Shown here piece by piece: positions 5,256 through 43,779 of a stretch of 46,561 nt of DNA. Below the pieces are notes generated by a model that was not told the DNA's origin, did no database searches, and was given only the letters and a program-made list of their open reading frames with translations. Where the stretch lies: contig JAFGFL010000073.1 in assembly GCA_016931055.1 (NCBI GenBank), forward strand, positions 1-46,561. The letters are read 5' to 3'. Positions within the stretch are counted from its first letter, which is position 1, and each line of letters opens with the position of its first letter. The DNA comes from Candidatus Omnitrophota bacterium (GTDB lineage: Bacteria > Omnitrophota > Gorgyraeia > Zapsychrales > Zapsychraceae). Made by a program: the position numbers and the translations under genes.

Positions 5256-5371
5256 ATAAAAGTAATATTTGAAAATCGAACCAAACATTCCTTGAGTATT
5301 TCTCACGCCACGGAGGGAATCAGGGTTTAAACGGATTTTGTATGAATCCCTTAAACCAGGAGAATGATTCC

Positions 5372-8300
5372 ATGCGCGGCTTTTTTATTTCTCAAAAAAA
5401 GAATTTTGTCATACGTAGCGTCACCAACCTGATTGTTTATTTACTGACCGCCTCATTTGTCTTCGGCCCTGCTCCGGTTTACGCCCAAGGATTAATAAAC
5501 CTTCCTCAACCCGGCACGATGGTCACTTTAAGCGCCGGGTTCGCTCCCGCTGTCATTAAGGGGATCACGATTTTTCCCGATCAACCTCTGCGGTTTGATT
5601 TCATCGTTGACCCGGGCGACTCCGGGCTTAAAGGAAATAACCTTAAATATGAATCGCAGAAGCTCATCAAATACTTCCTAGCCTCGATCACGGTTCCCGA
5701 AGAAGACATGTGGGTCAATTTGTCTCCCTATGAAAAAGACCGGATCATTCCCGATGGTTTTGGAAAAACGGAAATGGGCCGCGACCTTTTAGCCCAGGAT
5801 TATCTTTTAAAGCAGATCACTGCCTCCTTGATGTATCCCGAAGAAGAGATCGGCAAGGCGTTTTGGGAGAAAGTTTATAAGAAAGCCAACACGATGTATG
5901 GCACGACCGAAGTACCGGTCAACACCTTCAACAAGGTCTGGATCGTTCCTGAAAAGGCGACCGTTTATGAGAACGGTGATACCGTATTTGTTGCCGAGAG
6001 CTATTTGAAGGTCATGCTCGCCGAAGATTATGAAAATCTTTGGCGAAGCCTCGCCACGCCAGAGCGTGGCGGGCTGGAAGAAGATTACATTGCCCTGGAA
6101 CACAATTCGCTGAATATCGATCCCAAAGACGCTAGACGTATGAGCGAGGTCTCCAAATTCATTATTAAGGAGATCATCATTCCTGAGCTGGAAAAGGAAG
6201 TCAACTATGGTGAGAATTTCGCCAACCTTCGGCAGATTTATAACTCTGTTATTCTGGCGGCCTGGTACAAGAAGAACCTTAAAGAGAGTTTGCTGGGCTC
6301 GGTTTACATGGATAAGAACAAGGTCGATGGGGTCGATATCAAAGATCCAAAAGTCAATGAAGAAATTTATCAGCAGTACCTCGAAGCCTTCAAGGTCGGC
6401 GCGTACAATTTTATTAAGGAAGAGTACGATCAGGTGAGCCAGCAGGTCATTCCCCGTAAGTATTTCTCGGGAGGGGCTATTGTGGACCCCTCCAAAGTCT
6501 ATGCCGAACGGCAAGGGAATCCAATTGTCAGTGCTGCAGCAGAGATCATGCGGACCAATCTGGACCCGATCTCCAATTCTTCGCCGGTTACCGTTGCGCA
6601 GGCCTCAAAAGCTATGATAGGCACTTTAAAGGATTTTTACAAAAAAGAAGGGAAAAAGCGTGACGATTATAATGTGAAGCCCATTGTTGCCCCCAATAAA
6701 ATGGGTGTTCTCAAGAATGGAGATATTTTTATCTGGATTAATCACAGAGGGGATAGATCTTTAGAGGTGCTGGAAGCATTTACAAATCCCAATTTTAATC
6801 AAAGCGGCACCAGATTTGATACGAAGCCGGATCTCAAGGTCGATTATGTGCCTTTTGCCACTTATGATCCAAAGGCGTACCAGCAAAGAGGGATCGTTCC
6901 TGCTTTTGCTTCAGATGCCCCCGAAGTAAAGACGGTGTCAGATATTTTGGTTGAGAATGATGTTGAGCAAGGTAGATTCGGAGAAACGGACAAAGGTTCT
7001 CACGTTACAAGTTTCTATGATGGACGCAAAGAGATCAGCATGGAGACATATGCATCGAAAGGAATATACGTTGATATCGTGAATTCGGAAGGGGTTAAGG
7101 ATAAGGACAAAAATCCCGGGATGCAATATAAGACGGTCGCTCAACACGCAGTTCAATATATGGAAAGAAAAAGAAATTCTCTCAAAAAACAGTCCGTCTT
7201 TATTAATTTGGCTGTTGATATTCAAGGGCACGTGCTGGATGGGAATAAGGATCGTGCGGTCGCTACTGTATTAGCGGCGGATGAGGCGCTTGGAATGATC
7301 CGTGAGAAGGTCAAGGAATTAGGCGGGGTTCTCATCGTTACATCGGATCACGGTAACGTGGAAGAAATGGCGCGGCTGGATGAAAACGGTATGCCCATTA
7401 CTGATGAATATGGCGTAATCCCGTCATTGGCGCATTCAAAGCTCAATCCGGTCCCATTTATTGTGGAAGGGGTGGATGATGTCGTATTAAAGGAGCGTCT
7501 TGGTATTGCCAGTGTTGAAGCGACAAAGTTGGATCTATTAGGAATTCCAATCCCAGCCGGCAAAGCGGAAAGTGTCTTAAAGAGTTATAAGAAAAGAGAG
7601 ATAAAGGGGCCCGTGGTGACGGTCGTTTTAGACGGCTGGGGGATCAATCGGTTCTCGAATCCAGAAGCCTTGCAATGGGATGCGATTCATCTTGCCCAGC
7701 CGGCTGTTTTTAATGATCTAAGGAAAGAGAATCCTATGACAACGTTAAAGCCGTATGGGGACGCTGTCGGCTTACCGGAAACCTCAAAACATGTTCAGAT
7801 GGGGGATTCGGATAATGGGCATGCGACCATGGGATATATGGAAATTGTCCCTACCTTATTCTCAAAGATCATGGGACAGATCGAGACCGGTGAATTCCTT
7901 GAAAACAAGATTTTAAGAGAAAAGATACAAAAGGCCATAGATCAGGGGAAAGATATCGCCATCGCGGGTCTTATTTCAGACGGCGGCGTTCATTCTCACT
8001 ATGAATATGTCATGGCACTTTTAGAATTATGTGCCGAGATGGGCGTACAGAACACAAATACCAAAATCAAGCTTTATGCCGCTTTAGACGGCCGGGACGT
8101 GCAGACCCGTGTTCCGACGGAGAACGGCGCTTATTATTTGAACAATTTAGAGCAAAAAGCTAAGGCGTTAGGGTTAGAGAATAATTTTCTTATTGCCATG
8201 ATCAACGGCCGCGGGGACATCATGGACCGGGACGCCATCCGCCGGGACAAATTGGGAAAATATAAAGAAGCGACTGAATTATGGAGCGCGCGCTTTAAAG

Positions 8301-10714
8301 TTGCCTATGACGCCATGGTTTATGGGATTGGCGAGCCGGCAATCGCCGCGTCGCCGGTTCAGAAGGAAGGCCCGAGGTATTCCCAGACCAATACATTTGA
8401 TAAATTCACGACCAGAGCGGCTGGGATTATCAGGAACGGAATTGTCGATGCTTATGCGACAGACCGGATCATGGTTATTGAGATGGCCGGCGGTTCAGAC
8501 TCGGGGGCCTCATTGCTTGAAATAGGCCGAAAGGTCAAGGATCTCATATCCTTCAAAGGGGAAAAGGCTGGAGTTTCGATGACCTTCTTACCTCATCAAA
8601 AAATCGATTTGCAGCTGATGATCGAAAGGATGGCGAATTATCAGCGGAAAAAGGGATACGGAATGGTCCTTGTTTCCGACCGTGTTGATCTGGATTATGA
8701 TAATCCCCAGAATAAGAAATTGATCGATGAAGCGATCAAAAGTGATAAGGTCGTAAAGACGGCTTTTAACGAATATTTATTAGGAAGAAAGGCTTTAAAT
8801 ACGCGTTATATTGGAAACATTATCGCGGCGGTTCTGAAAAAACATTTGAAAAACCAGGGACGAACCGGAGGCGCAATCGAAGTCAGTTTGGCCGGAGAGA
8901 TGAACCCGGATGTTCTTTCAGACGGCGCAAAAGATATTCCGGAGGGAATCGATATTACCGGGAAAGATAAACCGGCCTATATGGAAGCCAATCAGGCCCT
9001 TATGCCCGAAATAAAGGAAACGCGGAACCTGTTTCCGCTACTTAACGGAAAACCAAAGACGAAAAAGAGAATCGTTGTTTTAACCGGTGGCGGCCCCGCG
9101 TCAGGTCATAACAACGTCATCTACTCACTGGTCAAGAAAGCGGAAGAATATGGATATGAAGTCATCGGTATACGACAAGGATGGAAAGGATTATACGACG
9201 ACAACTTGCTTAAGGAAGCCTATATTCTCAATTCAAAAGACCTTGAGCAATATCGGCAACTAGGAGGGACTGTTCTCCAGACAGAGCGGTTCAATCCGTT
9301 TTCTGATGAGTCAAAAGATGGTAAGCCTAGCAATATTGAAGCCGGCGTTCCGGACGTCATTTGGCGAAATTTAACTGAAGTATTAGAGGCAGACCTGATA
9401 AGTCCTTTTGGCGGTGATGATACGACCGGTGTTGGCATGAAATTTCAAGTCAAGCATCATAAACCTTCGGCCCCTAAGATAATTGCCGTCCCTAAAACGA
9501 TGGATTATGACCTTCCTGTCCCAACCTACGGTTACAGCAGTTTTACTGAAGTTGTGGCGGCGTATCTTAATGAGGTAGCAGTTGATTATGCTCAAGAACA
9601 CGGAACCATTCTTGTTGATGAAACTTTCGGACGCAACGCAGGGTGGGCGCCTTTAAAGATTGGAATGCTTACTCCTGCGGCTAAAACGTTTATTCCAGAA
9701 AAAGGAGAAAGTTTACAGAAGATCATTGATGATGTGGGTAAATTTGCCAGTCGTGGAAAAGGCGGTCTGATCATCACCTCTGAGGGATTCAAGCTGAATA
9801 CGAAGGATGAAACGGACAGCCGGTTGTTCGACGAAGCCGCGGAGCATTATCCTGTCGTTAAGGCTGCGTTTGAAAACGCCGTTAATGCTGGCGTTGATCA
9901 GTTCGGTCATCCGAAACTGCAGTTTGCCGGCGACATTCTTGCGGCGGTTTTGGAATATCATATTAATAAAAACCGGAGCGGAGAAAACCGTATACCGGTC
10001 AAATTATTGGGTAAAGCAGATTATCTGTTCCGGTCAGACGATATATCAGAAACAGATTTGATGATGACAACGGCGTTAGGGGAAATGGTCGTTGAGAAAT
10101 TCCATAAGGGAGAGACAAATAAACTGTTGTATGTGGATGAAAACGGAACGCGCGGAGAAATGCCGTTGCTTGATGAAACGGTGCTTCGTATTGCCAAAAA
10201 GTTAAAATTTGGTGAAGCTGACAGCCTTGTAGTATACAAAGCATTAGCAAAAATATCGGGATTCATTAAGAGTGAGCGGGAGCGGCAAGGCATCTCTGAT
10301 GCCAATCTAGCTGAAGCGGTTGGTATTACAGAAGATGAATTGGCGAAAATTGAAGGAGGCGGTAAAGAAAGTAAAGATAATATTGTGAAGAAAATGCCGA
10401 CTAAAAAAGTTGATGCTGAAGGGGCCGATAAACAGGCGGTCATCCAGGCCAACCCGGCTTCTTACGTTTCAAGCCCGGTCAATGAGAAAGACGTCGGCGG
10501 GATCGACCTTAACGCGAACAATTGGGACATCGAATCGACCGGCCGCGGGATGGATTTTGACGTGGGGCCTTTTGATCCGGCCACTCTTAATATGCCGGTC
10601 AACGGTTTTACGCCTGTTATCTTTGAAATGGTTCCCATAACGAACGTCCCGATGTTTATGGGTACGTTAGAAAGTGAAGGAAGCGAAACGCACCAGCAGC
10701 TCGGGCGGCTTTAA
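5372..10714 (+). CDS. Giant exported fusion: permuted phosphoglycerate mutase plus PPi-type phosphofructokinase modules
   Basis: 1780 residues from the ATG at 5372 (AGGAGA 8 bases upstream; an earlier in-frame ATG at 5342 lacks a site). Residues 1-38 look like a signal peptide ending VYA/Q. About 40-400 is an alpha-rich domain I associate with giant Omnitrophota proteins. About 440-740 is the C-terminal half of iPGM (RGDR 459-462, K541, D616/H620, D659/H660, H688). About 750-1000 is the iPGM N-terminal half (DGWG 754, S813, DGGVHSH, DGRD 906, MDRD), so the order is swapped but all metal ligands remain. About 1010-1180 resembles a degenerate phosphofructokinase C-half. About 1230-1560 is a full phosphofructokinase-like unit with GGDD (1347-1350), PKT (1374-1376) and GRNAG, the PPi-dependent signature. 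About 1631-1665 looks like an XRE-type helix-turn-helix. Activity and location are unproven. Confidence 0.8.
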   Translation: MRGFFISQKKNFVIRSVTNLIVYLLTASFVFGPAPVYAQGLINLPQPGTMVTLSAGFAPAVIKGITIFPDQPLRFDFIVDPGDSGLKGNNLKYESQKLIKYFLASITVPEEDMWVNLSPYEKDRIIPDGFGKTEMGRDLLAQDYLLKQITASLMYPEEEIGKAFWEKVYKKANTMYGTTEVPVNTFNKVWIVPEKATVYENGDTVFVAESYLKVMLAEDYENLWRSLATPERGGLEEDYIALEHNSLNIDPKDARRMSEVSKFIIKEIIIPELEKEVNYGENFANLRQIYNSVILAAWYKKNLKESLLGSVYMDKNKVDGVDIKDPKVNEEIYQQYLEAFKVGAYNFIKEEYDQVSQQVIPRKYFSGGAIVDPSKVYAERQGNPIVSAAAEIMRTNLDPISNSSPVTVAQASKAMIGTLKDFYKKEGKKRDDYNVKPIVAPNKMGVLKNGDIFIWINHRGDRSLEVLEAFTNPNFNQSGTRFDTKPDLKVDYVPFATYDPKAYQQRGIVPAFASDAPEVKTVSDILVENDVEQGRFGETDKGSHVTSFYDGRKEISMETYASKGIYVDIVNSEGVKDKDKNPGMQYKTVAQHAVQYMERKRNSLKKQSVFINLAVDIQGHVLDGNKDRAVATVLAADEALGMIREKVKELGGVLIVTSDHGNVEEMARLDENGMPITDEYGVIPSLAHSKLNPVPFIVEGVDDVVLKERLGIASVEATKLDLLGIPIPAGKAESVLKSYKKREIKGPVVTVVLDGWGINRFSNPEALQWDAIHLAQPAVFNDLRKENPMTTLKPYGDAVGLPETSKHVQMGDSDNGHATMGYMEIVPTLFSKIMGQIETGEFLENKILREKIQKAIDQGKDIAIAGLISDGGVHSHYEYVMALLELCAEMGVQNTNTKIKLYAALDGRDVQTRVPTENGAYYLNNLEQKAKALGLENNFLIAMINGRGDIMDRDAIRRDKLGKYKEATELWSARFKVAYDAMVYGIGEPAIAASPVQKEGPRYSQTNTFDKFTTRAAGIIRNGIVDAYATDRIMVIEMAGGSDSGASLLEIGRKVKDLISFKGEKAGVSMTFLPHQKIDLQLMIERMANYQRKKGYGMVLVSDRVDLDYDNPQNKKLIDEAIKSDKVVKTAFNEYLLGRKALNTRYIGNIIAAVLKKHLKNQGRTGGAIEVSLAGEMNPDVLSDGAKDIPEGIDITGKDKPAYMEANQALMPEIKETRNLFPLLNGKPKTKKRIVVLTGGGPASGHNNVIYSLVKKAEEYGYEVIGIRQGWKGLYDDNLLKEAYILNSKDLEQYRQLGGTVLQTERFNPFSDESKDGKPSNIEAGVPDVIWRNLTEVLEADLISPFGGDDTTGVGMKFQVKHHKPSAPKIIAVPKTMDYDLPVPTYGYSSFTEVVAAYLNEVAVDYAQEHGTILVDETFGRNAGWAPLKIGMLTPAAKTFIPEKGESLQKIIDDVGKFASRGKGGLIITSEGFKLNTKDETDSRLFDEAAEHYPVVKAAFENAVNAGVDQFGHPKLQFAGDILAAVLEYHINKNRSGENRIPVKLLGKADYLFRSDDISETDLMMTTALGEMVVEKFHKGETNKLLYVDENGTRGEMPLLDETVLRIAKKLKFGEADSLVVYKALAKISGFIKSERERQGISDANLAEAVGITEDELAKIEGGGKESKDNIVKKMPTKKVDAEGADKQAVIQANPASYVSSPVNEKDVGGIDLNANNWDIESTGRGMDFDVGPFDPATLNMPVNGFTPVIFEMVPITNVPMFMGTLESEGSETHQQLGRL
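6047..6075. repeat. Palindromic element inserted in frame in the giant gene
   Basis: AGCC-t-CGCCACGC (6047-6059) and GCGTGGCG-GGCT (6064-6075) form a 12 bp stem with one bulged T and a CAGA loop. It is translated as part of RSLATPERGGL. The near-identical stretches encoding AEDY and EEDY flank the segment at about 6019-6031 and 6076-6088, as if a short element had entered with a flanking duplication. Confidence 0.5.
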
Positions 10715-40101: not shown

Positions 40102-43100
40102 ATGTTTAGAAATTTACTGACATTCCTCTGTATTTTGTTGGCATTGATAATGTTGTGGACACCTGCCTCTGCAAATATCTTGTCTTTTATATCCGGCCAA
40201 GAGCAACAGTCCAGTCTGGACCCAAATAATGAGAAACAAGTTAGCACTTATAACGAACAAGCAATTCAGTTGTTTGAACAGGGACGGTTTGAGGAAGCCC
40301 AGGATTTTTGGGAAAAAGCCCTGGAGATTTTGGAGCGTCCTGGCGCTTTTGGCCAGGAGTATCCAGAATTGACAGGTTCCGTTGAATCTGAAGATGTTCT
40401 TCTTCTTGAAAGTGGAGGGGAGTTAGATAATGATCGTGTCAGCCAATTATATGACACTGCGGTTTCTATGTTTAAGAAGGAGAAATATGTTGCGTCCAAG
40501 AAAATTTTTGAGCGGATTGAGGCCACGATACCCGATTATAAGGCTACGCGCAACTACCTGATTATTCTTGACCACAAGATCAGGAGGGCACAGCAGAATT
40601 TAAGCGAAAAGAGTTTTGAGAAAAATGCCATTGCTCGCCGTGAAGAAAGAGCGGAATGGGGGCGTATTCTTGAGGAAAGCCGCATGGAGCTGGAAAATAA
40701 GCTGGCTGAACAGGCGGAACCGCTTTATCAAGAGGCGGTTGAATATTATAAATCAAGAGAATTCCAGCTGGCGAAGGACTACTTTATGGAGGTCAACAAC
40801 ATTCTTCCGCAGTATAAAGATACGGACAAGTATCTTTCCCGGATCGACAGAGATATCAAAGAGGAAGAAAAGCTGTTGATGGAGAGTAAACGGAAAAGAG
40901 AGCTTTTGGCGCGAAAAAAAGAAAAAGAAGAATGGAAACGCATCCTCCAGGAAAGCGAGCAGGAACTCCAGAAGAAACTTATTCAACAGGTTGATGCTGT
41001 CTATCAAGAAGCGCAGTATTACTATAAAAAACGCGAATTTGAACTGGCAAAAGAGCGTTTTGAAGAGGCGCAACTCATTGTCCCTAATTATAAATCCACC
41101 CTACAGTATTTAGGCCGCATTGACCGTGATCTGCAGGAAGAGATCCGGCTTCGCCAAGAACAACGCGCGCGCGGGTTGGAAAGAGAAAAGAGGGAACAGG
41201 AATTAGCCAGAAGGCGCCAAGAAGAACGCCTGGAAGAATTGCGCGAGGCCAAAGAAAACCAACGGCTTGCGCAGTTTGAAATGGAAGTGGCTCAACGCCG
41301 AAAAGAACGCCAAGAGTGGTTAAAGACGCTTGAAGAAAGCGAGAAAGAACGGCAGAAGAGACTAGAGGAACAGGCGCAATATATATATCAAGAAGCCATT
41401 AAGTATTATAAGCAAAGGCATTTTGAGCAAGCGAAAGAGGATTTCCTGGAAGTTCAGCGGATTTATCCCAATTACAAATCGACGGGGAATTATTTGGCGC
41501 GCATTGACCGGGATATCGAAGGAGAGCAAAAACAACGGATGGAAGAACGGCAGCGGCTTTTTCAGTTGAAACTGAGGGAAAAGAAATTATTTGAACAAAA
41601 GAAATGGGAAGAAGACCAGAAGATCCGCGCTGCCGAAGAGCAAGATCGGATGAGAGAATTCCAGGAAAAGGCCCTTGCCCGCGAAAAACAACGCAAAGAA
41701 TGGGAGCGCATCCTGCAAGAAAATGAAAAAGAACGGCAAAAGAAGCTGGAAGAAGAAGCGGAGTTTATTTACCAGGAAGCCCTGAAATCTTATCAAGTCA
41801 AACGGTTTGAAGAGGCCAAGGCCGCCTTTCTTGAAGTTGAACAAGTCGTTCCTGGCTATAAGCTGACAAAAAAGTATTTGGCGGGTATAGATAATGATAT
41901 ATGGAACATAGAACAGGAGCGCCGGAGAGTGGCCAGAGAAGAGTCTGTTCAACGCAAACAAGGGGAGATGTTAAAAATCGAACAGGAAGAAAAACGGCAA
42001 ATGGCGCTATTTAAGGCGAGGGAGAAAAAGGACCTAGAAAGAAAAGAAGCTCAAGCGGAGGCTGTTTATCAGTTTGCCGAATCGTTGTATAAGCGCGGCG
42101 ATTACGAGCAAGCAAAAAACAAGTTTCTTGAAGTTGAACAAATCCTGGCCGGATATAAATCAACGCCGAAATACTTGAATCGAATCGATCAGGATATTCA
42201 AAATGCGGAAGAACAGCGTCTGAAGGATCAGCGGCTTGCGTTTGAGCAGCAGATCCGGCAACAGAGGTTGTCGCAAAAGCTCGAAGAGGAACGTGTCGAA
42301 CGTTTGCGGGCGGCTGAAGAAGAGCAGAAAATCCTCAAGTTGAGGGAAGAAGCGCTGTTACGGGAACAGGAACGCAAGGCATGGGAGCGAACAATCAAGG
42401 ATATTGAGAAGGAACATCGGAAACGGCTGCAACAACAAGCAGATTCCGTTTATGAAGAGGCCATGCGTTATTACAAAGCCGGCTGGCTTGAGCAGGCCAA
42501 AGAAACTTTAGAGGAAGTAGAAGTCATGTGGCCGGGATATAAATCAACCGCAAAATATCTTGCGAAAATCGATTCAGAAATAAGAAAGAATCGAAGGCTT
42601 CGTCAAGAGAATGAAGAAGAGATTGTCAAAAGGCAGCAATGGCAGGAAGAACTGGCCAGAGAGAAGAGGGATACGCTGCAACAGAGCCGACAAAAGGCCG
42701 AAGAGCAGGAACGTCTGACGAAGTTGAAAGTGGAAACGTTAGCGCGAAAAGAAGAGAAGGAACGGTTGAAGGAATCGATGGATCGGATTGAAAGGGAATA
42801 CGAGAAACAGGCAAATCGGAAGGCGGAATCATTATATCGCGAGGCTCTCAAATATTATAAAGATAAAGATTTCGAGAAAGCGAAGGTCGCATTCATCGAT
42901 GTTGAAAGAACGTCTCCCGGTTATAAATCAGCGTCAAAATATCTTTCACGGATTGATGAGGATATCAGAAGCGAAAGACTCACAATGGAGCGAGATAACG
43001 TGCAAAGCCGCGGGAGGTATATGGAAACACCGGAAACCTATGCGCTTGAAAGAAACGGGTCAAAAGTTGTTCAGAAAGCATCGCAGGAACGTCAGGAACA

Positions 43101-43779
43101 ATTTTTGGAGGAAGCGGAAGCAAAGTACCGCGAAGCGCTCGCTTTGTATAAAGCCAAAGAGTTTATTCGGGCAAAGCTGAAATTTATTGAGGTTGAATCC
43201 CTTTATCCGGGATATAAGAAAACGCTCAATTATCTTGGACGGATTGATGAGGACATCAGTGAGAACCAGAAAATGTGGATAGAGGATCAACCGCGCGGAA
43301 TGTCTGAGGGCCAAGAATTGGATGTCTTAACGAGCAAGCTGGAAATTGTTGAACAGGCATTGTTGCAGGCGGAAGGCCGCTCTCAGGGGTTTGTGCCACA
43401 GAAGACCAAACGTCTTTTAGTTAAGAGACAAGAAGATGGACAAACGGCAGATTGGGAAAAACAGATCCAAGAGCGCCGCGAAGAATTGAGGGCTGAGCGC
43501 CGAAGATTTCAGCAGGAATACGAAAGACAATTCCAGCAATTATACTCCAGGGCCGTTACATTATATCGAAATCAGTCCTATGAAGAAGCAAAGGCGTTGT
43601 TTTTACAGATTGAACAGATGAAACCCGGATACAAAAAGGCTGCATCCTACCTCAAGAAGGCTGAAGCGTACATGCGCAAGGGTTTGCAGAAGAAAAGTCA
43701 CAACAATGTTGTCTATCAGCCGCAGGAGATCAAACCGCGCAAAGCCATTGTCGAGGATGCCTTAGACATATTTGAATAA
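40102..43779 (+). CDS. Exported repeat protein with about ten TPR-like units and charged coiled coils
   Basis: 1225 residues; a signal peptide (1-25, ending ASA/N). Ten to eleven copies of a 46-residue unit follow the pattern YxEAxxYYKxxxFExAKxxF and then EVExxxPxYKSTxKYLxRID. Clear copies start near residues 113, 207, 299, 426, 554, 653, 782, 906, 1006 and 1147. Between them lie linkers of about 45-95 residues made almost entirely of Arg, Lys, Glu and Gln, predicted as long single helices or coiled coils. The layout suggests a fibrous or spring-like periplasmic scaffold. No enzymatic motif is visible. It is not a known family beyond the TPR-like unit. The start lacks a ribosome site; a -10 lies 16 bases upstream. 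Confidence 0.75.
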   Translation: MFRNLLTFLCILLALIMLWTPASANILSFISGQEQQSSLDPNNEKQVSTYNEQAIQLFEQGRFEEAQDFWEKALEILERPGAFGQEYPELTGSVESEDVLLLESGGELDNDRVSQLYDTAVSMFKKEKYVASKKIFERIEATIPDYKATRNYLIILDHKIRRAQQNLSEKSFEKNAIARREERAEWGRILEESRMELENKLAEQAEPLYQEAVEYYKSREFQLAKDYFMEVNNILPQYKDTDKYLSRIDRDIKEEEKLLMESKRKRELLARKKEKEEWKRILQESEQELQKKLIQQVDAVYQEAQYYYKKREFELAKERFEEAQLIVPNYKSTLQYLGRIDRDLQEEIRLRQEQRARGLEREKREQELARRRQEERLEELREAKENQRLAQFEMEVAQRRKERQEWLKTLEESEKERQKRLEEQAQYIYQEAIKYYKQRHFEQAKEDFLEVQRIYPNYKSTGNYLARIDRDIEGEQKQRMEERQRLFQLKLREKKLFEQKKWEEDQKIRAAEEQDRMREFQEKALAREKQRKEWERILQENEKERQKKLEEEAEFIYQEALKSYQVKRFEEAKAAFLEVEQVVPGYKLTKKYLAGIDNDIWNIEQERRRVAREESVQRKQGEMLKIEQEEKRQMALFKAREKKDLERKEAQAEAVYQFAESLYKRGDYEQAKNKFLEVEQILAGYKSTPKYLNRIDQDIQNAEEQRLKDQRLAFEQQIRQQRLSQKLEEERVERLRAAEEEQKILKLREEALLREQERKAWERTIKDIEKEHRKRLQQQADSVYEEAMRYYKAGWLEQAKETLEEVEVMWPGYKSTAKYLAKIDSEIRKNRRLRQENEEEIVKRQQWQEELAREKRDTLQQSRQKAEEQERLTKLKVETLARKEEKERLKESMDRIEREYEKQANRKAESLYREALKYYKDKDFEKAKVAFIDVERTSPGYKSASKYLSRIDEDIRSERLTMERDNVQSRGRYMETPETYALERNGSKVVQKASQERQEQFLEEAEAKYREALALYKAKEFIRAKLKFIEVESLYPGYKKTLNYLGRIDEDISENQKMWIEDQPRGMSEGQELDVLTSKLEIVEQALLQAEGRSQGFVPQKTKRLLVKRQEDGQTADWEKQIQERREELRAERRRFQQEYERQFQQLYSRAVTLYRNQSYEEAKALFLQIEQMKPGYKKAASYLKKAEAYMRKGLQKKSHNNVVYQPQEIKPRKAIVEDALDIFE

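Follow-up and report, generated by a model that had tools for sequence, protein, structure and literature searches.

Profile comparisons and a predicted structure support the reading of residues ~427-1010 of a 1,790-aa protein encoded in the window (the whole stretch of Candidatus Omnitrophota DNA that was analysed, 46,561 nt) as a cofactor-independent phosphoglycerate mutase (iPGM) that has truly undergone circular permutation. The best explanation, to which we assign a probability of about 0.7, is an active, exported, permuted iPGM, of which we infer the activity, the export and the extracytoplasmic metabolic role. An earlier note on this DNA had proposed a true permutation with its catalytic residues kept, and that proposal now stands on the recurrence of the form in ten genomes of the phylum and in Clostridia, on 13 invariant positions, on dN/dS values and on a confident predicted fold. 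The features of the protein are listed in Table 1.

Table 1. Features of the window protein, with their positions in the window and the evidence for each.
Feature	Position	Strand	Evidence
Whole-protein ORF P0001, 1790 aa	5342..10714	+	ORF listing and translation
Putative Sec-type signal peptide, residues 1-48, KKNFVIRSVTNLIVYLLTASFVFGPAPVYA|QG	5342..5485	+	Hydropathy scan; relatives alike
Shared N domain, ~340 aa, residues 49-391	5483..6514	+	A3 profile
iPGM C-terminal part, residues ~427-748, canonical ~215-510	6620..7585	+	Profiles, PDB matches, alignment
Junction of native C-terminus and native N-terminus, VLKSYKKRE region	7586..7603	+	Alignment
iPGM N-terminal part, residues ~755-1010, canonical ~3-215	7604..8371	+	Profiles, PDB matches, alignment
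Extra degenerate PFK C-half, 5' of the complete PFK	8405..9040	+	blastp; weak Pfam match
Complete PFK domain, PFK_mixed/PPi-type-like, residues 1243-1603	9068..10150	+	PF00365, NCBIfam, motifs
C-terminal tail 'GGIDL...GFTPVIFEMVPITNVPMFMG', from residue 1719	10496..10678	+	Motif located; common to exported set

A phmmer comparison with the PDB matched residues 442-748 to the C-halves of solved iPGMs (7tl8 230-505; 1ejj 246-501) and residues 755-973 to iPGM N-halves (3-200). The same inversion was found with TIGR01307, which aligned in two stretches (E 4e-73), and with Pfam, where Metalloenzyme (432-735) precedes iPGM_N (845-966). In a comparison with a reference profile (533 positions) derived from 19 canonical-order iPGMs found in this phylum, the first part corresponded to positions 230-528 and the second to positions 5-194, with zero overlap; the second part extends further, to the conserved helix W..RF..AY..VYG.G, with which the N part of a canonical iPGM closes. 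The enzyme is complete: no region has been lost and the two halves cover it once. With VLKSYKKRE as the linker between them, the native C-terminus is in effect joined straight to the native N-terminus. Since the C part precedes the N part, and the canonical order (N part, then C part) fails in the window protein, its iPGM is, on sequence, a permuted variant and not a standard TIGR01307 member.

Each of these comparisons bears out the earlier note, which had placed the second group of iPGM motifs before the first and a short linker between them; the profile alignment that it proposed as a check gave two non-overlapping stretches in swapped order. Two incomplete copies in canonical order, which it named as a finding that would speak against a permutation, are excluded by the zero overlap.

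All seven metal ligands were located, five in the first part (D626, H630, D669, H670 and H698) and two in the second (D764 and the nucleophile S823). The other catalytic residues are likewise present, R469, R472 and K551 in the first part and H884, D916, R918, D919, R957 and R963 in the second, so that none of the 16 residues that bind metal or substrate or act as nucleophile has been lost. The canonical substrate residues H123, R153, D154, R185, R191, R261, R264 and K336 correspond to H884, R918, D919, R957, R963, R469, R472 and K551, respectively. The earlier claim that every metal ligand has an equivalent therefore holds and the residues were rightly named; the numbers given for them were 10 too low, having been counted from Met11 instead of M1 at nt 5342.

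In an alignment of 18 permuted sequences (mean column identity 38%), 13 catalytic columns were invariant in 18/18: D12, H123, D151, R153, R185, R261, R264, K336, D403, H407, D444, H445 and H462. Position S62 is Ser in the permuted forms, the exception being the clade of G140/G149/G216/G250 with Thr, and D154 is replaced by Ser in G233 and in the Clostridial permuted forms. The permuted clade with the Ser-to-Thr change at the nucleophile (L038, L039, L040, L041) also carries an insertion of ~50 aa before the DHGA motif. The related pairs with unsaturated dS gave dN/dS values of 0.14 (G149/G216) and 0.17 (L058/L091), and the permuted iPGM is under purifying selection in these pairs.

It is improbable that the segment is a former iPGM in decay, or one that serves purely as a structural unit of giant surface proteins. 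Such a reading would accommodate the score of the window protein against TIGR01307 (246.6 bits, below the curated cut-off of 330.65), the Thr found for S62 in one clade and the degenerate state of the neighbouring PFK half, but it has to contend with the invariant catalytic residues, the dN/dS of 0.14-0.17 and a fold that is predicted to be complete and confident. Decay was accordingly not favoured, and the point made in the earlier note, that survival of the catalytic residues argues against it, is strengthened by the invariant columns and the dN/dS values. Among the permuted relatives, the domain of genome G011 (362.9 bits) and three tested Clostridial proteins (466-496 bits) score above the TIGR01307 cut-off. 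The permuted form escapes standard annotation, since the profile score adds up the two halves.

The structure prediction proposed in the earlier note was carried out with AlphaFold2, with the window segment and 17 permuted relatives as input. The permuted segment was modelled as a single fold with a pLDDT of 89.6 and a pTM of 0.88, confidence being low only at the two tails. Foldseek returned 22 matches with E<0.001, all of them iPGMs, each over ~250-360 columns; this is roughly half of the model, because a permutation is being aligned sequentially. When the permuted-sequence profile was compared with the PDB, 11/11 distinct solved iPGM sequences matched in two stretches (E down to 4e-172), which means that none of these 11 is permuted.

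In the canonical Bacillus iPGM the phosphatase domain carries the phosphotransferase domain (about 77-310) as an insertion. The first part of the window iPGM comprises the end of the phosphotransferase domain and most of the phosphatase domain; the second comprises the start of the phosphatase domain and most of the phosphotransferase domain. With the cut near canonical residue 215 the phosphatase domain therefore becomes continuous and the transferase domain is split. In the proposed scheme, the native C- and N-termini would have been fused and new termini created near that residue, in a phosphotransferase-domain loop, so that a continuous phosphatase domain would now be inserted into the phosphotransferase domain, guest and host having been exchanged. 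The active site would be expected to match that of the usual iPGM despite this exchange. The enzyme would most likely convert 3-phosphoglycerate to 2-phosphoglycerate and back by the two-metal phospho-serine mechanism usual for iPGMs, with S823 as nucleophile.

The permuted form is not unique to the window protein. Among 285 genomes searched in this phylum, ten have it in long ORFs (G000, G011, G036, G092, G140, G149, G216, G223, G233 and G250), with a constant cut point and half order and with linkers of 4-16 aa. Free-standing canonical iPGM was found in about 40 of the 285 genomes, and iPGM in canonical order also occurs inside giant ORFs of 2,813 to 29,111 aa in four (G150, G162, G170 and G232); the loci concerned are L043 (G170:C26), L044, L045 and L046, one ORF alone reaching 29,111 aa. 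A scan of GTDB contigs yielded ten loci in Clostridia MAGs that encode a free-standing permuted iPGM of ~525 aa (L052, L054, L058, L059, L061, L064, L091, L099, L103 and L110). The protein of L052 covers positions 228-526 of the iPGM profile and then 9-225, and the permutation therefore loses and repeats almost nothing.

In the Clostridial proteins SSHG and DGRST replace DGGVHS and DGRD, and their function may differ. Their genomes often encode a canonical iPGM as well, and they would be annotated as ordinary iPGM, because they exceed the TIGR01307 cut-off (three tested). The free-standing permuted form is rare (2/149 genomes of one family, 1/291 of the class), and the idea that it is a common Clostridial enzyme was rejected on these counts.

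These recurrences bear directly on whether the permutation is only apparent, being the product of an assembly chimera or of two incomplete tandem copies. The window does come from a draft genome in 94 contigs, but ten genomes of the phylum share the order and the cut point with ten loci in Clostridia that come from other assemblies, and the halves cover the enzyme once without overlap; we give this explanation next to no weight and regard it as refuted by the independent recurrences.

In a tree of rotated sequences, which has long branches, G233 grouped with the Clostridial forms (100/100) and the others formed separate clades. Monophyly of all permuted forms gave a p-AU of 0.148 in the AU test, a value at which a single origin is neither shown nor rejected. 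The probable origin of the permutation is a tandem duplication with fusion, after which the outer parts were lost.

The same chain carries phosphofructokinase (PFK). PF00365 matched residues 1243-1502 with 137.4 bits, above the gathering score of 30.9, and the motifs GGDDT, KTMDYD, ETFGR and TSEGF were located; the putative counterpart of the downstream RG motif reads, by eye, FGHPKLQFAG. The region upstream of this domain matched a PFK C-half with 26% identity over 227 columns (E 4e-11, blastp). A second permutation was considered for PFK and rejected: an extra degenerate C-half precedes a complete PFK in normal order. This extra half looks like a duplication stopped half way, and is a possible parallel to the origin of the iPGM permutation. 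Near the C-terminus, residues ~1637-1673 (10250-10370) gave a weak helix-turn-helix match of the HipB/XRE-like type (E 0.001). Another gene of the window encodes a TPR-repeat protein of 1,225 aa (40102-43779).

The putative signal peptide is the only hydrophobic segment found by the hydropathy scan of the 1,790-aa protein. Relatives with intact starts have similar N-termini, in which an n-region containing Lys/Arg and a single h-region lead to an A-x-A|Q-like site directly before the N domain, and these agree with the suggestion in the earlier note that the protein is exported. Matches to the N domain family were found in 37/145 genomes, often with at least 13 copies per genome; in parts of the phylum the domain stands at the head of dozens of large exported proteins in a single genome. 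In the sampled proteins each N domain follows a signal-peptide-like stretch, and nearly all scanned family members have no second hydrophobic segment.

The N domain (5483-6514) had no Pfam match, and its AF2 model (pLDDT 82) had no fold match in the PDB (Foldseek, E<0.001). Most of the sampled N-domain proteins end in a GGIDL...GF.PVII..P...LP.LLG tail, the motif being located in 16 of those sampled. The family defined by N domain and tail (the window and loci L127-L159) seems to be a modular family, so far undescribed, for export or assembly. Its cargo also includes a protein kinase with a PP2C phosphatase (L145, G132) and response-regulator domains (L151, G136).

The N-terminal stretch could instead be a membrane anchor, or go unused, with the modules forming a tethered cytoplasmic multi-enzyme chain. 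The substrates are cytoplasmic, and the signal peptide was assigned from a hydropathy scan, both of which fit that arrangement; it is made distinctly unlikely by the recurrence of n-region, h-region and A-x-A|Q-like site in the sampled family members, by the lack of any other hydrophobic segment in nearly all those scanned and by the existence of separate cytosolic paralogues.

On domain content, the window protein appears to belong with other exported fusion proteins of glycolysis. Across the phylum the cargo includes glucose-6-phosphate isomerase (PGI), triosephosphate isomerase (TIM), phosphoglycerate kinase (PGK), enolase and pyruvate phosphate dikinase (PPDK), all of which keep their catalytic motifs or pass equivalog cut-offs. 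In the genome of the window itself, an exported PGI (L141, 1-5931) scored 677 bits against a cut-off of 492, matched a solved glucose-6-phosphate isomerase with E 4e-169 and keeps the catalytic Glu, His and Lys motifs; a phosphoglucomutase/phosphomannomutase family domain (L140) and a starch-synthase-like domain (L142) are also found in exported proteins. The exported PGI is of the PRK00179 type, and L173, the free-standing PGI of this genome, falls in a different subfamily, PRK14097.

Three adjacent genes of genome G036 (L143:402-15607) encode an aldolase-like protein (GatZ/KbaZ), TIM with enolase, and PGK with PPDK, each with a signal peptide and an N domain; PPDK (1237 vs 843 bits), enolase (324 vs 300) and TIM (143 vs 131) exceed their cut-offs. 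Another contig of this genome encodes the permuted iPGM together with a phosphoglucomutase domain. A single exported protein of G011 (L034:2-8212) combines PEP synthase, PGK, permuted iPGM and enolase, the last being the only enolase found in that genome, which is 84% complete. The exported cargo includes consecutive steps of lower glycolysis or gluconeogenesis.

The genome of the window also encodes an ordinary cofactor-dependent PGM (PRK14115, 441.9 bits against a cut-off of 305), an ordinary PGI, three PFKs and two enolases. The exported set thus comes on top of these enzymes, and the exported iPGM is not needed for cytosolic glycolysis, since the cofactor-dependent PGM is present. Another PGM-like gene of this genome was rejected as a second iPGM, because it is of the ApgM/proposed homoserine kinase type and adjoins aspartokinase.

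The iPGM reaction would probably take place after Sec export, with the enzyme acting as one module of the exported glycolytic fusion set, PFK being on the same chain. Against this reading stand the ordinary cofactor-dependent PGM of the genome and the lack of any known source of 3-phosphoglycerate outside the cytoplasm. A broader proposal, which we put forward tentatively and at less than even odds, is that the phylum exports a near-complete glycolytic or gluconeogenic pathway as modular proteins and runs it extracytoplasmically, whether in the periplasm, within an internal compartment or inside a prey or host cell. Each protein would consist of a signal peptide, an N domain of new fold, cargo and a GGIDL tail, and the set would include an iPGM whose permutation suits insertion into a chain.

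The main rival explanation is that the exported glycolytic modules are moonlighting factors for attachment or predation, their fold being kept mainly for binding. Purified, natively folded GAPDH and PGK of Myxococcus xanthus inhibit the growth of E. coli (PMC10141889) and offer a precedent; a study of Omnitrophota describes lifestyles of predation or symbiosis, and giant ORFs to which no function is assigned (PMC10066038); and separate ordinary glycolytic enzymes are encoded in the genome. We nevertheless consider moonlighting unlikely: the clade of the window protein keeps all catalytic residues, beyond those needed for the fold, the exported PGI, TIM, PGK, enolase and PPDK retain catalytic motifs or pass equivalog cut-offs, and the cargo takes in consecutive pathway steps. 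An exported and active permuted iPGM is the reading that we retain.

The earlier note knew of no permuted iPGM, and we found no description of one, or of extracytoplasmic glycolysis, in the open-access papers searched; a 2010 survey of bacterial PGMs (PMC2964296) does not mention permutation. The natural permutation of a textbook glycolytic enzyme in two settings is a ready experiment on domain nesting, and bears on how metal-site enzymes tolerate new termini. The larger question is why bacteria with ordinary glycolytic enzymes also export fusions of PGI, PFK, TIM, PGK, PGM, enolase and PPDK; its answer would bear on the use of phosphorylated metabolites by host-dependent or predatory bacteria.

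Natural permutation of a metabolic enzyme with its function kept has a precedent in glutathione synthetase, as cited in PMC2876114, although fold and enzyme are different and the likeness ends there. The Omnitrophota giant ORFs resemble the window protein in being long exported or surface proteins of unknown function, but they are reported to have few annotated domains, and neither exported glycolytic enzymes nor the N domain and GGIDL tail are described in the consulted portion of that account (PMC10066038). The iPGMs of G150, G162, G170 and G232 also lie in very long ORFs, but with their halves in the usual order. Bacterial GpmI (TIGR01307; PDB 1ejj, 4my4, 3igy) shares both domains, the metal ligands, the nucleophile and the substrate-binding residues with the window iPGM, which differs in its swapped halves and in being embedded in a 1790-aa exported fusion. 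The free-standing Clostridial iPGM has the same permutation and the same cut point; it differs in its length of ~525 aa, in having no fusion partner and in its SSHG and DGRST motifs.
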